Positions 5,324-19,598 of a DNA stretch of 21,960 nucleotides are shown here, in pieces. The stretch comes from a virus. Position 1 is the stretch's first letter. The number at the start of each line of letters is the position of its first letter. The notes beneath the pieces are model-generated. The model saw only the letters and a program-made list of their open reading frames with translations, was not told where the DNA came from and did not search any database. Both the position numbers and the translations under genes were made by a program. The DNA lies in the IMG/VR virus record IMGVR_UViG_3300033182_000151, positions 1-21,960 of that record, one strand, 5' to 3'.

Positions 5324-5729
5324 GGCGTTCAACAGTAATAAGAAATTCGACATCGACCTTGCTTATGGTAAGATGCACGAAAAGCGTGTTTTAGACATGC
5401 TCGAAGGGAAAAAGCTAGAAGTAAAGACAGAGCGTGGCAAGTGGTCGAAGACAGGCAACATTGCCATTGAATTTGAAAGTTACGGTAAGCCAAGCGGTAT
5501 CGACTCTACTGAAGCTGAATATTGGTTTCACAATCTAGCTATCGAAGATGATGTGTATTGCACACTCGTTTTCAAGACAGAAACACTAAAGAAAATTGTG
5601 AATGAGTTAGACGCTCACCGTGTTGTTCGTGGTGGCGACAACTTTGCTAGCAAGATGTTCTTAGTAAACCTGAGTAAGCTTTTCTCTACAGATACTTTGA
5701 AGGTTTACAAGGAATTAGAGCATGGTTGA
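5280..5729 (+). CDS. Probable PD-(D/E)XK nuclease-like phage protein
   Basis: With ATG 5280 the product has 149 residues: a basic N-terminus, then KKFDIDLAYGKMHEKRVLDM, and KKLEVKTERGKW with E47 and K49 forming an ExK motif. TGNIAIEFESYGKPSGID follows. An acidic helix residue before ExK plus an aromatic or hydrophobic strand after it is the usual layout of PD-(D/E)XK nucleases, and similar proteins occur in other T7-like phages. The nuclease role is inference from the motif; cleavage is not shown. The start is unsettled. ATG 5280 lacks a clear Shine-Dalgarno site, while in-frame ATG 5208 has AAGGT at 5196-5200 and would add 24 residues but overlap the polymerase gene by 116 bases. The position between polymerase and exonuclease genes suits a DNA-processing role. 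Confidence 0.75.
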   Translation: MQNTQSEKTGKKRTKAFNSNKKFDIDLAYGKMHEKRVLDMLEGKKLEVKTERGKWSKTGNIAIEFESYGKPSGIDSTEAEYWFHNLAIEDDVYCTLVFKTETLKKIVNELDAHRVVRGGDNFASKMFLVNLSKLFSTDTLKVYKELEHG

Positions 5730-5901
5730 AGACTTATTGTTCTGGGTAATTGCCTGTGCCTTTGCATTGGTGTCTGTGGCATTGACCATAAACATCCTAA
5801 TGCACGCTTGGCTTGAGTACATACAGGTCAAGGAAGGCATACAGGTTTTTCGGAACCAACAGTTTCAAGAAGAGGAGCAGGATGACGACTTTAGTAATTG
5901 A
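5722..5901 (+). CDS. Small membrane protein of unknown function, 59 aa
   Basis: The frame MVEDLLFWVIACAFALVSVA has one clear hydrophobic segment (about residues 5-28), followed by a polar, Gln/Glu-rich tail ending QDDDFSN. This predicts a single-span inner-membrane protein with a cytoplasmic or periplasmic tail. AAGGAA at 5709-5714 is seven bases before ATG. The ATG overlaps the end of the upstream gene by eight bases, and its own 3' end overlaps the exonuclease start by 20 bases. Size and topology would allow a holin- or inhibitor-like role, but nothing in the sequence proves it, and T7-like lysis genes usually sit after the tail genes. Confidence 0.7.
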   Translation: MVEDLLFWVIACAFALVSVALTINILMHAWLEYIQVKEGIQVFRNQQFQEEEQDDDFSN

Positions 5902-6604
5902 CGGTGACCTGATTGCTTACAGGGTATCTGCCTCGGCAGAAGTGCCAATCAATTGGGGAGACGGTCTATGGACACTTCACTCTCAAGAGAGCGACGTGAA
6001 AGTAGGTGTAGATGACGCAATCTATGAGATTGTAAATCGAACAGAGTGTAACAAATACATTGTTGCACTTAGTGACAGTAAAAATAACTTTCGTAAAAAG
6101 GTGGCTAGCTACTACAAGGCTAACCGCACAAACACACGGAAACCGATGCTTTTATCGTTTGCCCGTGAGTACATGATGGAACGCCACAATGGATTGGTGT
6201 GGGCAAACCTAGAAGCTGATGATGTTCTAGGGATTCTCGCCTCTAGTGGTGATGACTATGAAACGTGGACGCTAGACAAAGACTTGAAGACGGTGCCAGG
6301 AAAACACTGGTTTGACGACAAGTTGATAGTGATTAGCGAAGAAGAAGCTAACCATAACTTCTACCACCAAACCCTTACAGGTGACCTTACCGATAATTAC
6401 GGTGGGTGCCCGAAGGTTGGTGAAAAGACCGCCGACAAAATCCTTGAGAAGGATAACAGTTGGAACGGTGTTGTTGCTGCGTATTTCAATGCAGGTCTCA
6501 GTGATGAGGTAGCACTGGAGAACGCTCGGTTAGCACGAATTCTACGTGATGGGGAATATAATGTTGGGACAGGAGAAGTGAATTTATGGGTGCCAGAAAC
6601 TTGA
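5882..6604 (+). CDS. 5'-3' exonuclease (T7 gp6-like)
   Basis: The product has 240 residues (T7 gp6 has about 300) and belongs to the FEN/5'-nuclease family. It removes RNA primers, degrades host DNA and takes part in recombination. Visible motifs are VIDGD (metal ligands D7, D9), YYKANR at 77-82, EADDVLG (E111, D113, D114), TLDKDLKTVPG (D132, D134) and GDLTDNYGGCPKVGEKTA (167-184), which is the helix-hairpin-helix DNA-binding segment. ATG 5882 is preferred because AGGAG at 5873-5877 lies just upstream and the conserved IDGD follows at once; the frame extends upstream to 5813 without such support. The gene's 3' end overlaps the DUF3310 gene by 19 bases. Confidence 0.94.
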   Translation: MTTLVIDGDLIAYRVSASAEVPINWGDGLWTLHSQESDVKVGVDDAIYEIVNRTECNKYIVALSDSKNNFRKKVASYYKANRTNTRKPMLLSFAREYMMERHNGLVWANLEADDVLGILASSGDDYETWTLDKDLKTVPGKHWFDDKLIVISEEEANHNFYHQTLTGDLTDNYGGCPKVGEKTADKILEKDNSWNGVVAAYFNAGLSDEVALENARLARILRDGEYNVGTGEVNLWVPET

Positions 6605-6855
6605 ATGGGGCTGAGGACAATGTGAATAGTCCAAAGCATTACGTGAACAATGGCGTAGAAACAATCGACAGTATCAAAGCCGCCTTAGGCGACCTTGGTA
6701 CCATCAATTACTGCCAAGGCAACGTGATGAAGTACATCAGCCGCATGTGGCACAAGAAGAACCCACTAGAAGACGCTAAGAAAGCGCAGTGGTATCTCAA
6801 CAGAATGATTCAGGAAATGGAAAACAACACAGGGGTAGAAGATGTCTTTGGATAA
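6586..6855 (+). CDS. DUF3310 protein, possible nucleotide kinase (T7 gp1.7-related)
   Basis: The 89-residue product carries the DUF3310 pattern: VNSPKHYVNNGVETIDSI (13-30), then YCQGNVMKYISR (42-53), HKKNPLEDAKKAQWYLNRMI (56-75). T7 gp1.7 contains a related region and phosphorylates dTMP and dGMP, so a nucleotide kinase role is possible. This protein is much shorter than gp1.7 and has no P-loop, so the activity is not assured. AGGAG at 6571-6575 precedes ATG 6586 by ten bases. It is flanked by the exonuclease and MazG-like genes and overlaps both, which supports a part in nucleotide metabolism. Confidence 0.85.
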   Translation: MGARNLNGAEDNVNSPKHYVNNGVETIDSIKAALGDLGTINYCQGNVMKYISRMWHKKNPLEDAKKAQWYLNRMIQEMENNTGVEDVFG

Positions 6856-7147: not shown

Positions 7148-8885
7148 ATATCTCGGAATCAAAATTGATAAATCTCGGAACAAAAATTTAACGGAACAAG
7201 CATATGCACTTCTTAAAGACTATTATTGCAAAGGCGGAGAACACCCTCAACAATCCTATGCACGGGCTGCCGTGGCTTATTCTTTCGGGGATACAGAGTT
7301 TGCTCAAAGGATTTATGATTACGCTAGTAATAATTGGTTTATGTTTGCAAGCCCTGTACTCTCGAATGCTCCTATGGCTGGAGAAACCCCTAAAGGGCTT
7401 CCAATCTCGTGTTTCGTCACTTATGTCGGTGACACGCTCGAAAGTCTCATCTCTCATAACTCGGAAGTAGCTTGGCTTTCAGTTAAAGGAGGCGGGGTTG
7501 GTGGTCACTGGTCAGATGTTCGTGGTATTAGCGACAAATCTCCAGGTGTAATCCCCTTCCTTAAAGTAGTAGACGGTCAGATGACCGCATACAAGCAAGG
7601 CAAAACACGCAAGGGTAGCTACGCTGCTTACCTTGATGTTAGCCACCCTGATGTAATTGAATTCATGCAATTCAAGGTTCCAACAGGAGGTGATGCAAAC
7701 CGTAAGTGTTTTAACCTCTTCAACGCTGTCAACATTACCGACGCATTCATGCAAGCGGTAGAAAACGATGAAGAGTGGTCACTGATTGACCCTCATTCTA
7801 AGGAGGTGACCGACACAGTTAAGGCTAGGGAACTGTGGCAGCGTTTGTTAGAGGCTCGTTTCCGCACTGGTAGCCCTTATCTAAACTTCATCGACACAGC
7901 CAACGAAGCTCTACCAGAGGCTCAAAAGAAGCTGGGTCTGAAGATTCATGGGTCTAACCTGTGCAATGAAATTCACCTACCCACCGACGAAGACCGAACA
8001 GCCGTCTGCTGCCTGTCTTCAGTCAACCTTGAAAAGTATGACGAGTGGCGTGGTACTGGAATGATTAAGGACTTGGTTCGACTGTTGGATAATGTGTTGA
8101 CGTTCTTTATCGACAACGCACCAGACGAACTAGAGAAGGCAAAATTCTCCGCACAACGTGAACGTGCTATCGGCTTGGGTGCTATGGGCTTCCACGGGTA
8201 TTTGCAAAAACACAACATCCCTTGGGAAAGTTTACACGCCAAGTTTGTCAACACTGGTATGTTTACGGAGATTAAAAATGAAGCTGTGGAAGCAAGTGAA
8301 GAGCTGGCTAGAGAACTTGGTGAAGCCCCCGACATGGCCGGAACAGGAAGAAGAAACTCTCATCTACTGGCAATCGCTCCTAACGCTAATAGTAGTATTA
8401 TTTGTGGCTGTACAGCTAGCATCGAGCCTTTGAAGTCTAATGCCTTTACCCACCGCACAAGGGCAGGGGCGCATCTAGTCAAGAATAAGTACCTTGAAAA
8501 AGCACTTGAAGAAAAGGGTATGAACACAGATGAGGTTTGGAAAACCATCATTAACAATGACGGCTCGGTACAACACCTCGACTTCCTAACAGAAGATGAA
8601 AAGCTAGTCTTTAAGACTGCTTTTGAAATTGACCAAGGGTGGGTGGTAGACCATGCGGCAGACAGGCAACCGCTTATCTGTCAGGGACAAAGTGTAAATC
8701 TTTTCTTTCCGTCTGGTAGCCCACGCAGCTATGTAAATTCCGTCCATCTTCGTGCATGGAAGAAGAAACTAAAAGGTGTGTATTATCTACGCACAAACGC
8801 TGGCGTAAGTGCCGACAAAGTAGGGCTTCAGGTCGAGCGAGTAGCCTTGCAAGACGCTGAAGAGTGTATGTCCTGCCAAGGATAA
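7137..8885 (+). CDS. nrdA: Ribonucleoside-diphosphate reductase, class I large subunit NrdA
   Basis: With ATG 7137 the product has 582 residues, shorter than bacterial NrdA of about 760. It lacks the N-terminal ATP-cone, so overall dATP inhibition is probably lost, as is frequent in phage enzymes. Active-site residues are present: C92 in PISCFV, N274-C276-E278 in SNLCNEIHLP, C291 in the CCLSSVNL segment, the tyrosine pair in VYYLRTNAG that carries the radical, and the C-terminal redox pair in EECMSCQG. It reduces NDPs to dNDPs together with NrdB. The start is ambiguous: ATG 7137 has GGAG at 7121-7124, while in-frame ATG 7119 is possible. NrdB lies about 1.5 kb downstream, separated by small genes and a structured non-coding stretch. 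Confidence 0.95.
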   Translation: MQSEYLGIKIDKSRNKNLTEQAYALLKDYYCKGGEHPQQSYARAAVAYSFGDTEFAQRIYDYASNNWFMFASPVLSNAPMAGETPKGLPISCFVTYVGDTLESLISHNSEVAWLSVKGGGVGGHWSDVRGISDKSPGVIPFLKVVDGQMTAYKQGKTRKGSYAAYLDVSHPDVIEFMQFKVPTGGDANRKCFNLFNAVNITDAFMQAVENDEEWSLIDPHSKEVTDTVKARELWQRLLEARFRTGSPYLNFIDTANEALPEAQKKLGLKIHGSNLCNEIHLPTDEDRTAVCCLSSVNLEKYDEWRGTGMIKDLVRLLDNVLTFFIDNAPDELEKAKFSAQRERAIGLGAMGFHGYLQKHNIPWESLHAKFVNTGMFTEIKNEAVEASEELARELGEAPDMAGTGRRNSHLLAIAPNANSSIICGCTASIEPLKSNAFTHRTRAGAHLVKNKYLEKALEEKGMNTDEVWKTIINNDGSVQHLDFLTEDEKLVFKTAFEIDQGWVVDHAADRQPLICQGQSVNLFFPSGSPRSYVNSVHLRAWKKKLKGVYYLRTNAGVSADKVGLQVERVALQDAEECMSCQG

Positions 8886-9286: not shown

Positions 9287-9371
9287 GTACTTAATCCTCG
9301 CCGGAGTCCTTTGGAACTCAACACTACAAACGATGTGGTATATCAAATGGAGACAAAATGAATATCAATGA
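9279..9371 (+). CDS. Possible 30-aa membrane peptide, GTG start
   Basis: A frame starting GTG 9279 reads MIEYLILAGVLWNSTLQTMW and ends KWRQNEYQ: a hydrophobic N-terminal half and a basic C-terminal end. It fills the gap between the 84-residue gene and the next ATG and overlaps both (8 and 14 bases), a pattern used by real genes here. There is no good Shine-Dalgarno site and it is very short, so it may be chance. Confidence 0.3.
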   Translation: MIEYLILAGVLWNSTLQTMWYIKWRQNEYQ

Positions 9372-9492
9372 CGTGAACAAGAGTTGGAAAGAAAATCATC
9401 CTGAACGTGTCTGGGCTACTGAAGAATCTTCAGAGGTTACTGTAGCCATGTGTCAGCGGTTCCAAGAGGAACTAGATGAAAAGCTTAAGTGA
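9358..9492 (+). CDS. Small protein of unknown function, 44 aa
   Basis: The frame reads MNINDVNKSWKENHPERVWA and ends QEELDEKLK. It is charged, probably helical, with no membrane segment. GGAG at 9349-9352 is five bases before ATG 9358. It is the last gene before the 570-base stretch without convincing genes, and a terminator-like hairpin follows 27 bases after its stop. No family recognised. Confidence 0.6.
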   Translation: MNINDVNKSWKENHPERVWATEESSEVTVAMCQRFQEELDEKLK

Positions 9493-9501
9493 CTGATTTC
9501 A

Positions 9502-9614
9502 TTCCCGTTCGGGAAGACCTAACCACTTTTGGTTAGTTTTCTCCCCAAATTTTCCCGTTCGGGAAGATTATTAGTCAAATGTGGTAAATTTAGTAGTTTT
9601 CTTCCCGTTCGGGA
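9502..9614 (+). repeat. Three hairpin repeats TTCCCGTTCGGGA spaced exactly 50 bases apart
   Basis: Copies begin at 9502, 9552 and 9602. The first two are TTCCCGTTCGGGAAGA; the third keeps TTCCCGTTCGGGA. Each can fold with stem TTCCC/GGGAA around GTTC. The sequences between them differ. A fourth core copy (CCCGTTCGGG) is at 11393-11402 just before the virion promoter. The equal 50-base step suggests duplicated units or sites spaced for a protein. Confidence 0.75.
9519..9540 (+). terminator. Terminator-like hairpin after the small-gene cluster
   Basis: CTAACCA (9519-9525) pairs perfectly with TGGTTAG (9530-9536) around a four-base loop, followed by TTTT and CTCC. The 7-bp stem is only moderately GC-rich and the T run is short, so termination may be partial. 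It lies just after the last gene of the nrdA cluster, between the first two hairpin repeats. Confidence 0.5.
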
Positions 9615-9636
9615 TTAAGTTTCTCAGATACGGAAA

Positions 9637-9915
9637 GTTGCATATATCGGACATTTTGCGGACATTGCCTGAAATGTGCAACGAAACGTAGAGCAATATG
9701 TCAGAAAAATCAATGACTTTCTGACAAATACGCAACGAATTGTGCAACGAAATGCGGAGAATAGACGGTTTAATCTCCGCACCCAGATTGAGGCTAACCG
9801 TACCCAATTTGAGCAAAGTTACTGCGGTTTATCCTTGAAGGATAATTTGCCTAAACTCAGTATGTTTGCCAGCCTCACACATGGAGGCCGTAGCTGCCTG
9901 TGTGATAGGCACAAA
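9637..9915 (+). ncRNA. Candidate structured non-coding RNA
   Basis: Successive inverted repeats occur in this order. GTTGC 9637-9641 pairs with GCAAC 9678-9682, enclosing ACATTT 9651-9656 with AAATGT 9672-9677. TGTCAGAAA 9699-9707 pairs with TTTCTGACA 9718-9726. TGCGGAGA 9753-9760 pairs with TCTCCGCA 9774-9781. AACCG 9796-9800 pairs with CGGTT 9825-9829. TTATCCTT 9829-9836 pairs with AAGGATAA 9838-9845. The last is a long broken hairpin in which TTTG 9865-9868, GCC 9872-9874, TCACACA 9875-9881 and GGC 9886-9888 pair with CAAA 9912-9915, GGC 9908-9910, TGTGTGA 9899-9905 and GCC 9896-9898. The strand is assumed from the genes. Identity is unknown; no known RNA family was recognised. Confidence 0.4.
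9675..9752. repeat. Short direct repeats TGTGCAACGAAA / GCAACGAA
   Basis: The 12-mer TGTGCAACGAAA occurs at 9675-9686 and 9741-9752, and its core GCAACGAA also at 9732-9739. A second short repeat, CGGACATT, is at 9648-9655 and 9659-9666, one helical turn apart. Such iterated sites could bind a replication or regulatory protein; the last two GCAACGAA copies are 12 bases apart. Confidence 0.5.
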
Positions 9916-10059
9916 GAGATTTGCAAAGTAATCAAATGACCATCAAATAAGAATGTACATATGAATCAATGGCTTACGCTTACAATCTTTGCATGTTCAA
10001 CATACTAAACAAAATAAAACGGTTTTGTACAGGATAATGAACAACATAAGGAGATGCTT

Positions 10060-10218
10060 ATGAACGACTGTCCGTGGAGTCGAATTGATATTATTGGACA
10101 GAACGGGAACGACGGAGACCACTATCAGGAAATACCCCTGAGTCCTCCTGAGAAGGCTCCAGAGGCTGCGAATGACGAAGAAGGTATAGACCCACCTGAC
10201 CCTCCGTTGGCTGCTTAG
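10060..10218 (+). CDS. Small acidic proline-rich protein of unknown function, 52 aa
   Basis: The frame starts MNDCPWSRIDIIGQNGNDGD and ends PPDPPLAA. It is acidic and rich in Pro and Asp, likely disordered. AAGGAG at 10048-10053 lies six bases before ATG 10060, one of the best Shine-Dalgarno sites in the window. An in-frame ATG at 10054 is too close to that site to be used. It is the first gene after the structure-rich region. No family recognised. Confidence 0.65.
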   Translation: MNDCPWSRIDIIGQNGNDGDHYQEIPLSPPEKAPEAANDEEGIDPPDPPLAA

Positions 10219-11368: not shown

Positions 11369-11410
11369 CCCGAGCGGGGAGAATTCTACTCACCCGTTCG
11401 GGAACTCCCC
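11369..11410 (+). other. Overlapping hairpins between nrdB and the virion promoter
   Basis: CCCG 11369-11372 pairs with CGGG 11375-11378. CCCGTTCGGG lies at 11393-11402, the fourth copy of the core repeated at 9502-9614. GGGGAG 11376-11381 can alternatively pair with CTCCCC 11405-11410, enclosing the latter hairpin. The pairings are partly exclusive. There is no T run, so it is not a typical terminator; a processing site or protein site is possible. Confidence 0.5.
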
Positions 11411-19134: not shown

Positions 19135-19598
19135 CAGCGAGTTTTCGGCATACTAAGCCCGAGGACATTCCTGTACTTGCTGAGAACCTAAGAAAAGCTG
19201 ACATCGAAGAATTAGCAGCCTCAACAGGATTAGAACCTGAGGTTGCTCTTCGCATGTCTGTAGAGGTCTCCGAGGAAGCCAACACAATTGTACTGGATGA
19301 CGGTACAGTGGTTGGCATCTTCGGAATATCTCATATTTCAGAACATGTCGGCTGTCCTTGGCTAGTGGGTTCAGATTTAATTAGCGACATAAGAACACCG
19401 TTCTTACGTGGCTCAAAGGCTTGGATTGAAGAAAAACAATCCGAGTATCCAATCTTAACTAACTTTGTACACACTAAGAATGAAACAGCCATTCAGTGGC
19501 TAAGGTTTCTCGGGTTCCAATTCATTCGCCTAATTGAAAAACATGGGGTTGGAAAAGAACCCTTTTACGAATTCGTGAGGATACAAAAAAATGTGTGA
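19131..19598 (+). CDS. Internal virion protein A (T7 gp13-like, GNAT-type fold)
   Basis: The 155-residue product (T7 gp13 138) starts MTASFRHTKPEDIPVLAENL, like T7 MTIRPTKSTDFEVF. The motif TNFVHTKNETAIQWLRFLGF (residues about 123-142) matches T7 VWVGNTSHIRFLKTIGA and looks like the acetyl-CoA-binding end of GNAT acetyltransferases. T7 gp13 is needed for assembly of the internal virion core. Whether this protein acetylates anything is unknown. ATG 19131 overlaps the stop of the tail tube B gene; the frame extends upstream to 19095 inside that gene, without support. The end overlaps the gp14-like gene by eight bases. Confidence 0.85.
   Translation: MTASFRHTKPEDIPVLAENLRKADIEELAASTGLEPEVALRMSVEVSEEANTIVLDDGTVVGIFGISHISEHVGCPWLVGSDLISDIRTPFLRGSKAWIEEKQSEYPILTNFVHTKNETAIQWLRFLGFQFIRLIEKHGVGKEPFYEFVRIQKNV

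Follow-up and report, generated by a model that had tools for sequence, protein, structure and literature searches.

A mosaic array of hipBA-type and PDC-M05-type operator sites between nrdA and nrdB of a T7-like phage as a candidate DNA decoy for host toxin-antitoxin regulators

Between the nrdA and nrdB genes of a T7-like phage, positions 9482-9930 appear to form a mosaic array of double-stranded operator sites that would titrate host toxin-antitoxin (TA) or defence regulators, a reading to which we give slightly better than even confidence. The sites of the array are recognizable by their identity and spacing, they are linked to cognate genes in bacteria, they recur in unrelated phages, and some of them are embedded in coding sequence. 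The window, i.e., the whole 21,960-base IMG/VR virus record that was analysed, contains the C-terminus of a T7-like RNA polymerase, a gp2.5-like SSB, an endonuclease, a primase/helicase, a DNA polymerase and an exonuclease, together with portal, capsid and tail genes. Because the window is a fragment of a genome, a gene missing from it could still exist elsewhere in the phage. The array is situated between the end of nrdA at 8885 and the start of nrdB at approximately 10384. Among relatives, nrdA and nrdB are separated by anything from 161 to 1867 bp, and no nucleotide homology to the array was found in 153 loci with a related nrdA or nrdB; thus, the space between the two genes is an accessory site. 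No match was obtained among named phages and plasmids, and a tRNA search found none.

The 5′ part of the array contains three palindromes, P1 (TTCCCGTTCGGGAA, 9502-9515), P2 (TTCCCGTTCGGGAA, 9552-9565) and P3 (TTCCCGTTCGGGAT, 9602-9615), which follow the pattern TTCCCGTTCGGGA(A/T) at a pitch of exactly 50 bp. P1 and P2 are exact matches to a palindrome that flanks hipB in bacteria, while P3 is imperfect (11/12). All three lie just 5′ of the interval 9637-9915 described in the initial annotation, from which they are absent. A scan of bacterial sequences for paired TTCCCGnnCGGGAA returned more than 119 stretches from many phyla; 80 loci were kept, with a pitch of 49-50 bp in 75 of them, a HipB-type gene adjoining the pair in 70 and HipA present as well in 58. 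One bacterium with such a hipBA promoter is Comamonas kerstersii (locus L235). Regularly spaced, and with the motif and the pitch seen beside bacterial hipB, the three palindromes are in our judgement very probably hip-type operators as regards their identity, and HipB would be the protein expected to bind them. Neither hipA nor hipB had a match in the 21,960-base window, and their absence beside the palindromes indicates orphan operators rather than a hipBA locus.

Using the identical pattern with an allowed pitch of 44-56 bp, we identified 46 distinct pairs in viral sequences, 45 of which are without hipB or hipA and 45 of which have a pitch of 49-51 bp. A viral scan for the pair also gave many contigs, otherwise unrelated, with the 49-50 bp pitch; one of them, L172, has hipBA directly behind its pair. 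A search for HipA_C across whole viral records found it absent in 18 of 19. When pitches of 25-89 bp were allowed in the 1.2 Mb of nrd loci and the window, hip pairs turned up only in the window (50 and 50 bp) and in L082 (49 bp), which is the closest nrdA relative of the window and has no other sequence in common with it here. The arms vary among five homologous arrays, all of which keep a pitch of exactly 50 bp.

Half-sites of the E. coli HipB type at 9829-9845 (TATCC..GGATA) were rejected because they are separated by a gap of 5, rather than the 8 of what we take to be the E. coli motif. Two CCCGnnCGGG palindromes 3′ of nrdB (11369 and 11393, spanning 11369-11404) have a pitch of 24 instead of 50. 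Nearly identical orphan hip pairs are carried by six IMG/VR records (L388, L389, L390, L391, L410 and L412), which are possibly prophages of isolates and, as such, candidates for a culturable test system. In three large viral contigs (L158, L188 and L162), orphan hip pairs adjoin tRNA-like genes.

The second site type is a pair of CCCAnnnTGGG sequences. On the plus strand at 9782-9813, the pair CCCAGATTGAG-N10-CCCAATTTGAG has a pitch of 21 bp and an imperfect match to this consensus (14/16), and a further plus-strand pair at 1281-1312 (DTQSGNDSTQFED; 15/16) lies within the part of the gp2.5-like ssb gene that encodes the C-terminal region. These are exactly the two pairs of at least 14/16 that the whole window contains at pitches of 12-60 bp, both at 21 bp, and shuffled sequences gave none. 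Better pairs are held by homologues, that of L082 being perfect. In bacteria, the exact pair was found in 9 of 369 genomes. In eight of these nine, it heads an operon of two genes, which corresponds to PADLOC PDC-M05A/M05B (E 1e-82 and 4e-63) and whose first gene encodes a protein with a winged helix in addition to a nucleotidyltransferase domain. The reciprocal test with 25 M05A homologues showed that the best CCCAnnnTGGG pair of any pitch has a pitch of 21 bp in approximately half of them, on the upstream side of the gene. PDC-M05, a candidate phage-defence system, comprises a nucleotidyltransferase and a HEPN protein, an architecture typical of TA modules, and its antiviral role is unconfirmed (PMC12988326, 2026). 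With the 21-bp pitch that precedes PDC-M05A, the site at 9782-9813 is, in our judgement, quite likely an M05-type operator pair by identity, to which M05A would bind. Unlike the bacterial loci, the window has the operator alone, in a degenerate form in the array and in a better form in ssb; the M05A/M05B operon is absent from the 21,960-base window and was found in none of 62 viral loci.

The two site types also occur together in other phages. Four of the 62 viral loci, all chosen by their M05 pair, contain a hip pair at 49-50 bp, and none was found at 60 control pitches. The M05 pairs of L339 and L357 are located inside the C-terminus of the gene preceding the terminase large subunit; past the stop codon of that gene comes the hip pair, with a spacer resembling that of the window. 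In L333, the M05 pair is inside another gene, which we read as DUF3310-like. Sites are embedded in the coding sequences of ssb, TerS, a DUF3310-like protein and an AAA ATPase. ORFs of at least 150 amino acids, some of which may be spurious, contain 17 of the 46 distinct viral hip pairs and 27 of the 80 bacterial pairs; among the ORFs around viral hip pairs, those of L179 and of the L392/L397/L417 group have the appearance of genuine genes. Selected DNA sites within unrelated proteins fit a decoy more easily than promoter control.

The inverted repeats listed in the initial annotation (9699-9726, 9753-9781, 9829-9845 and 9865-9915) are all present, and comparison with homologous arrays resolves them into modules. 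In L187 and L193, an unrelated dyad takes the place of TGTCAGAAA-N10-TTTCTGACA (9699-9726), which in the window is followed by the dyad TGCGGAGA-N13-TCTCCGCA (9753-9781). A dyad module of approximately 46 bp at 9814-9860, built around TTATCCTTGAAGGATAA (9829-9845; arms TTATCCTT/AAGGATAA), is present in L194 and cleanly absent from L193. The module with TCACACA-N17-TGTGTGA (9862-9921) has 93% identity in L193 and is absent elsewhere, and the hairpin GTTGCATAT..ATGTGCAAC (9637-9682) has partly lost its 5′ arm in L187, L193 and L194. Between P1 and P2, the dyad CTAACCACTTTTGGTTAG is followed by TTTTC (9519-9536), and L193 and L194 have a different hairpin there. This is the single terminator-like stem, and the 50-bp palindromes of the window are without T-runs; terminators were rejected as an identity for the array.

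The array further contains direct GCAACGAA repeats on the plus strand at 9678, 9732 and 9744 (9678-9751). A pattern scan with this repeat identified the homologues L187, L190/L192, L193 and L194, in all of which the repeats keep a strict geometry of 12, 54 and 66 bp and flank a dyad; L190 has the full geometry of 0/12/66/78. A bacterial counterpart of the repeats was sought in three sets, with 0 of 369, 0 of 114 and 6 of 398 positive against 3 control matches, which is near chance. The GCAACGAA repeats, like the dyads at 9753-9781, 9829-9845 and 9874-9906, may be operators of further systems. The array blocks are mosaic among phages, and modules are cleanly gained and lost: a 186-bp block is shared at 93% identity with L194 only, and a 74-bp block, also at 93% identity, with L193 only. 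The genes next to the array differ from phage to phage. L187, L190 and L194 encode nearby a protein that we read, from its sequence, as a putative class II ribonucleotide reductase (NrdJ), and L193 is apparently a phage of another, lambda-like kind. Thus placed near a class II-like nrdJ in L187, L190 and L194 and between the class I nrdA and nrdB in the window, the array seems to travel with ribonucleotide-reductase regions. In L195, a non-coding region (5600-5860) contains many GCAACGA repeats, and the rest of the array is missing.

The initial annotation named two candidates for the interval, a structured RNA and a replication/control locus. The feature is real and was mis-typed as RNA, while the control-locus half of the proposal stands in a sense that was not foreseen, that of hipBA-type and PDC-M05-type operators. 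The folding comparison that it suggested gave a strong result: 9620-9930 folds at -95.7 kcal/mol (z -4.7), a value that 0 of 100 shuffles equalled. Folding of the minus strand is alike (-94.6, z -4.9), which is expected from double-stranded dyads. In a 150-nt fold scan of the whole window, positions 9451-9800 rank with the most structured parts of either strand, and the scan places the excess at about 9451-9850 on both; it begins 5′ of the annotated interval, at about 9482, and within 9637-9915 it comes mainly from dyads outside the hip and M05 site types. The array is not the top fold of the window, which is located at 19201 on the plus strand (z -7.5) and at 6651 on the minus strand (z -6.1). 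These strongest predicted folds (19201-19400 and 6600-6800) are inside or around coding sequence.

A structured non-coding RNA at 9637-9915, acting as a regulator or a decoy through a chain of hairpins, would account for the strong z value and for GCAACGAA motifs that are conserved and unpaired on either side of a hairpin swapped wholesale in L187 and L193; some plus-strand changes also create G-U pairs. Nevertheless, we consider such an RNA quite unlikely, because the two strands fold equally and the stems are gained or lost as modules, the L187/L193 stem being an unrelated dyad rather than the product of stepwise compensation. Additionally, the L190 homologue 3′ of its palindromes has no significant fold (z -1.2/+0.1). 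A five-sequence alignment, which has low power with so few sequences, contained no column pair with changes on both sides, and this small sample only weakens the RNA reading. The search of Rfam gave chance matches only, none above the gathering threshold. An integron attC site and a group I intron were dropped on inspection since the arms do not fit.

The remark that the stretch holds no convincing gene was likewise borne out. The 87-amino-acid frame at 9676-9939 lacks a coding signature: relative to the closest homologue, L194, codon positions 1, 2 and 3 carry 5, 4 and 5 changes, and of the 12 changed codons 2 are synonymous. There is thus no excess of synonymous change and no sign of purifying selection on a protein. 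No related protein was found in phages, and among PHROGs no match fell below E 0.26. Based on the codon-position pattern and the lack of relatives, this ORF and its reverse-frame counterparts were ruled out as coding.

The sites could instead be working operators at which host HipB or M05A, or an off-fragment phage regulator of like specificity, times or blocks nearby transcription. Their fixed spacing fits promoter architecture, most viral hip pairs are outside long ORFs, a promoter-like sequence directly follows the L190 array, and the intergenic position would allow ordinary gene regulation. We regard this explanation as unlikely, given that the plus strand between the palindromes of the window is without a promoter-like match, that coding sequences of unrelated genes also contain sites, that the neighbouring genes vary between phages, and that 45 of the 46 distinct viral pairs have no adjacent HipB-like gene. 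The mosaic gain and loss of modules and the variable length of the accessory nrdA-nrdB gap would be compatible with mobile palindromic repeats of a neutral or selfish nature, or with remnants of transduced hipBA/M05 promoters, that have no function for the phage. However, pitches have stayed exact while spacers diverge, two operator types co-occur in several phages, sites are embedded in essential coding sequence and the genes left no trace, which makes a functionless origin very unlikely.

If the array is a set of operator decoys, its copies would compete for host HipB or HipB-HipA and for the M05A regulator as the phage DNA multiplies. Capture of these regulators would disturb or hold the toxin systems, and infection would thereby be helped; in this scheme, protein binding, titration and the benefit to the phage are what we infer. 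In E. coli, the HipB-HipA complex binds operators, and HipA is held inactive. This behaviour is consistent with two published studies (PMC8262856, PMC7029023). Since HipA is inactive in the operator-bound complex, extra operators could keep the toxin sequestered, or they could disturb autoregulation; whether the toxin would be restrained or triggered is not readable from sequence. The host of the phage may or may not carry hipBA or PDC-M05.

Known hipBA systems offer precedents for the spacing. A Caulobacter study notes that identical inverted repeats follow one another with a spacing suited to a higher-order HipA/HipB/promoter complex (PMC7029023), and HipBST operators are also described as evenly spaced (PMC10653801). 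Unlike these loci, the window has three sites in a T7-like phage setting, with no hipB or hipA after them and with a spacer that holds a hairpin and no promoter-like match. The datA locus provides titration (decoy) sites for DnaA. The sites of the window are likewise gene-less DNA that would soak up a regulator, whereas the array is phage-borne and, if our reading is right, aimed at TA regulators. Pseudo-ToxI RNA and Dmd are phage antitoxin mimics made of RNA or protein. The proposed array would, like them, be a phage countermeasure to host TA systems, and it differs from them in being operator DNA.

More broadly, it is conceivable, although we put it somewhat below even, that lytic and temperate phages carry multi-target DNA decoys for several host TA or defence systems, partly hidden in coding sequence. 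The open-licence literature that we searched contained no description of phage-borne TA operator decoys. If the sites bind host regulators, bare DNA sites would be a phage weapon against TA defence, and such decoys would form a counter-defence class with neither protein nor RNA. The operators carried by phages would then reveal, from sequence alone, which TA systems matter in infection, and additional defence systems, as yet unrecognised, would be indicated by the remaining dyads and GCAACGAA repeats as their operators. At the same time, a deletable 130-bp element would allow direct tests of the antiviral role that is disputed for HipBA and PDC-M05.

Two small plus-strand ORFs border the array. 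The first (MNINDVNKSWKENHPE..., 9358-9492) is directly 5′ of it and is common to L187 and L190, and the second (..RIDIIGQNGNDGDHYQE.., 10054-10218) is 3′ of it and common to L187. The peptide I(I/V)GQNGNxGxxY is shared by small, otherwise different phage proteins encoded at 10054-10218 in the window, 5098-5430 in L190, 4306-4893 in L187 and 4176-4547 in L333; in the L187 ORF, the peptide is followed by an endonuclease VII-like sequence.
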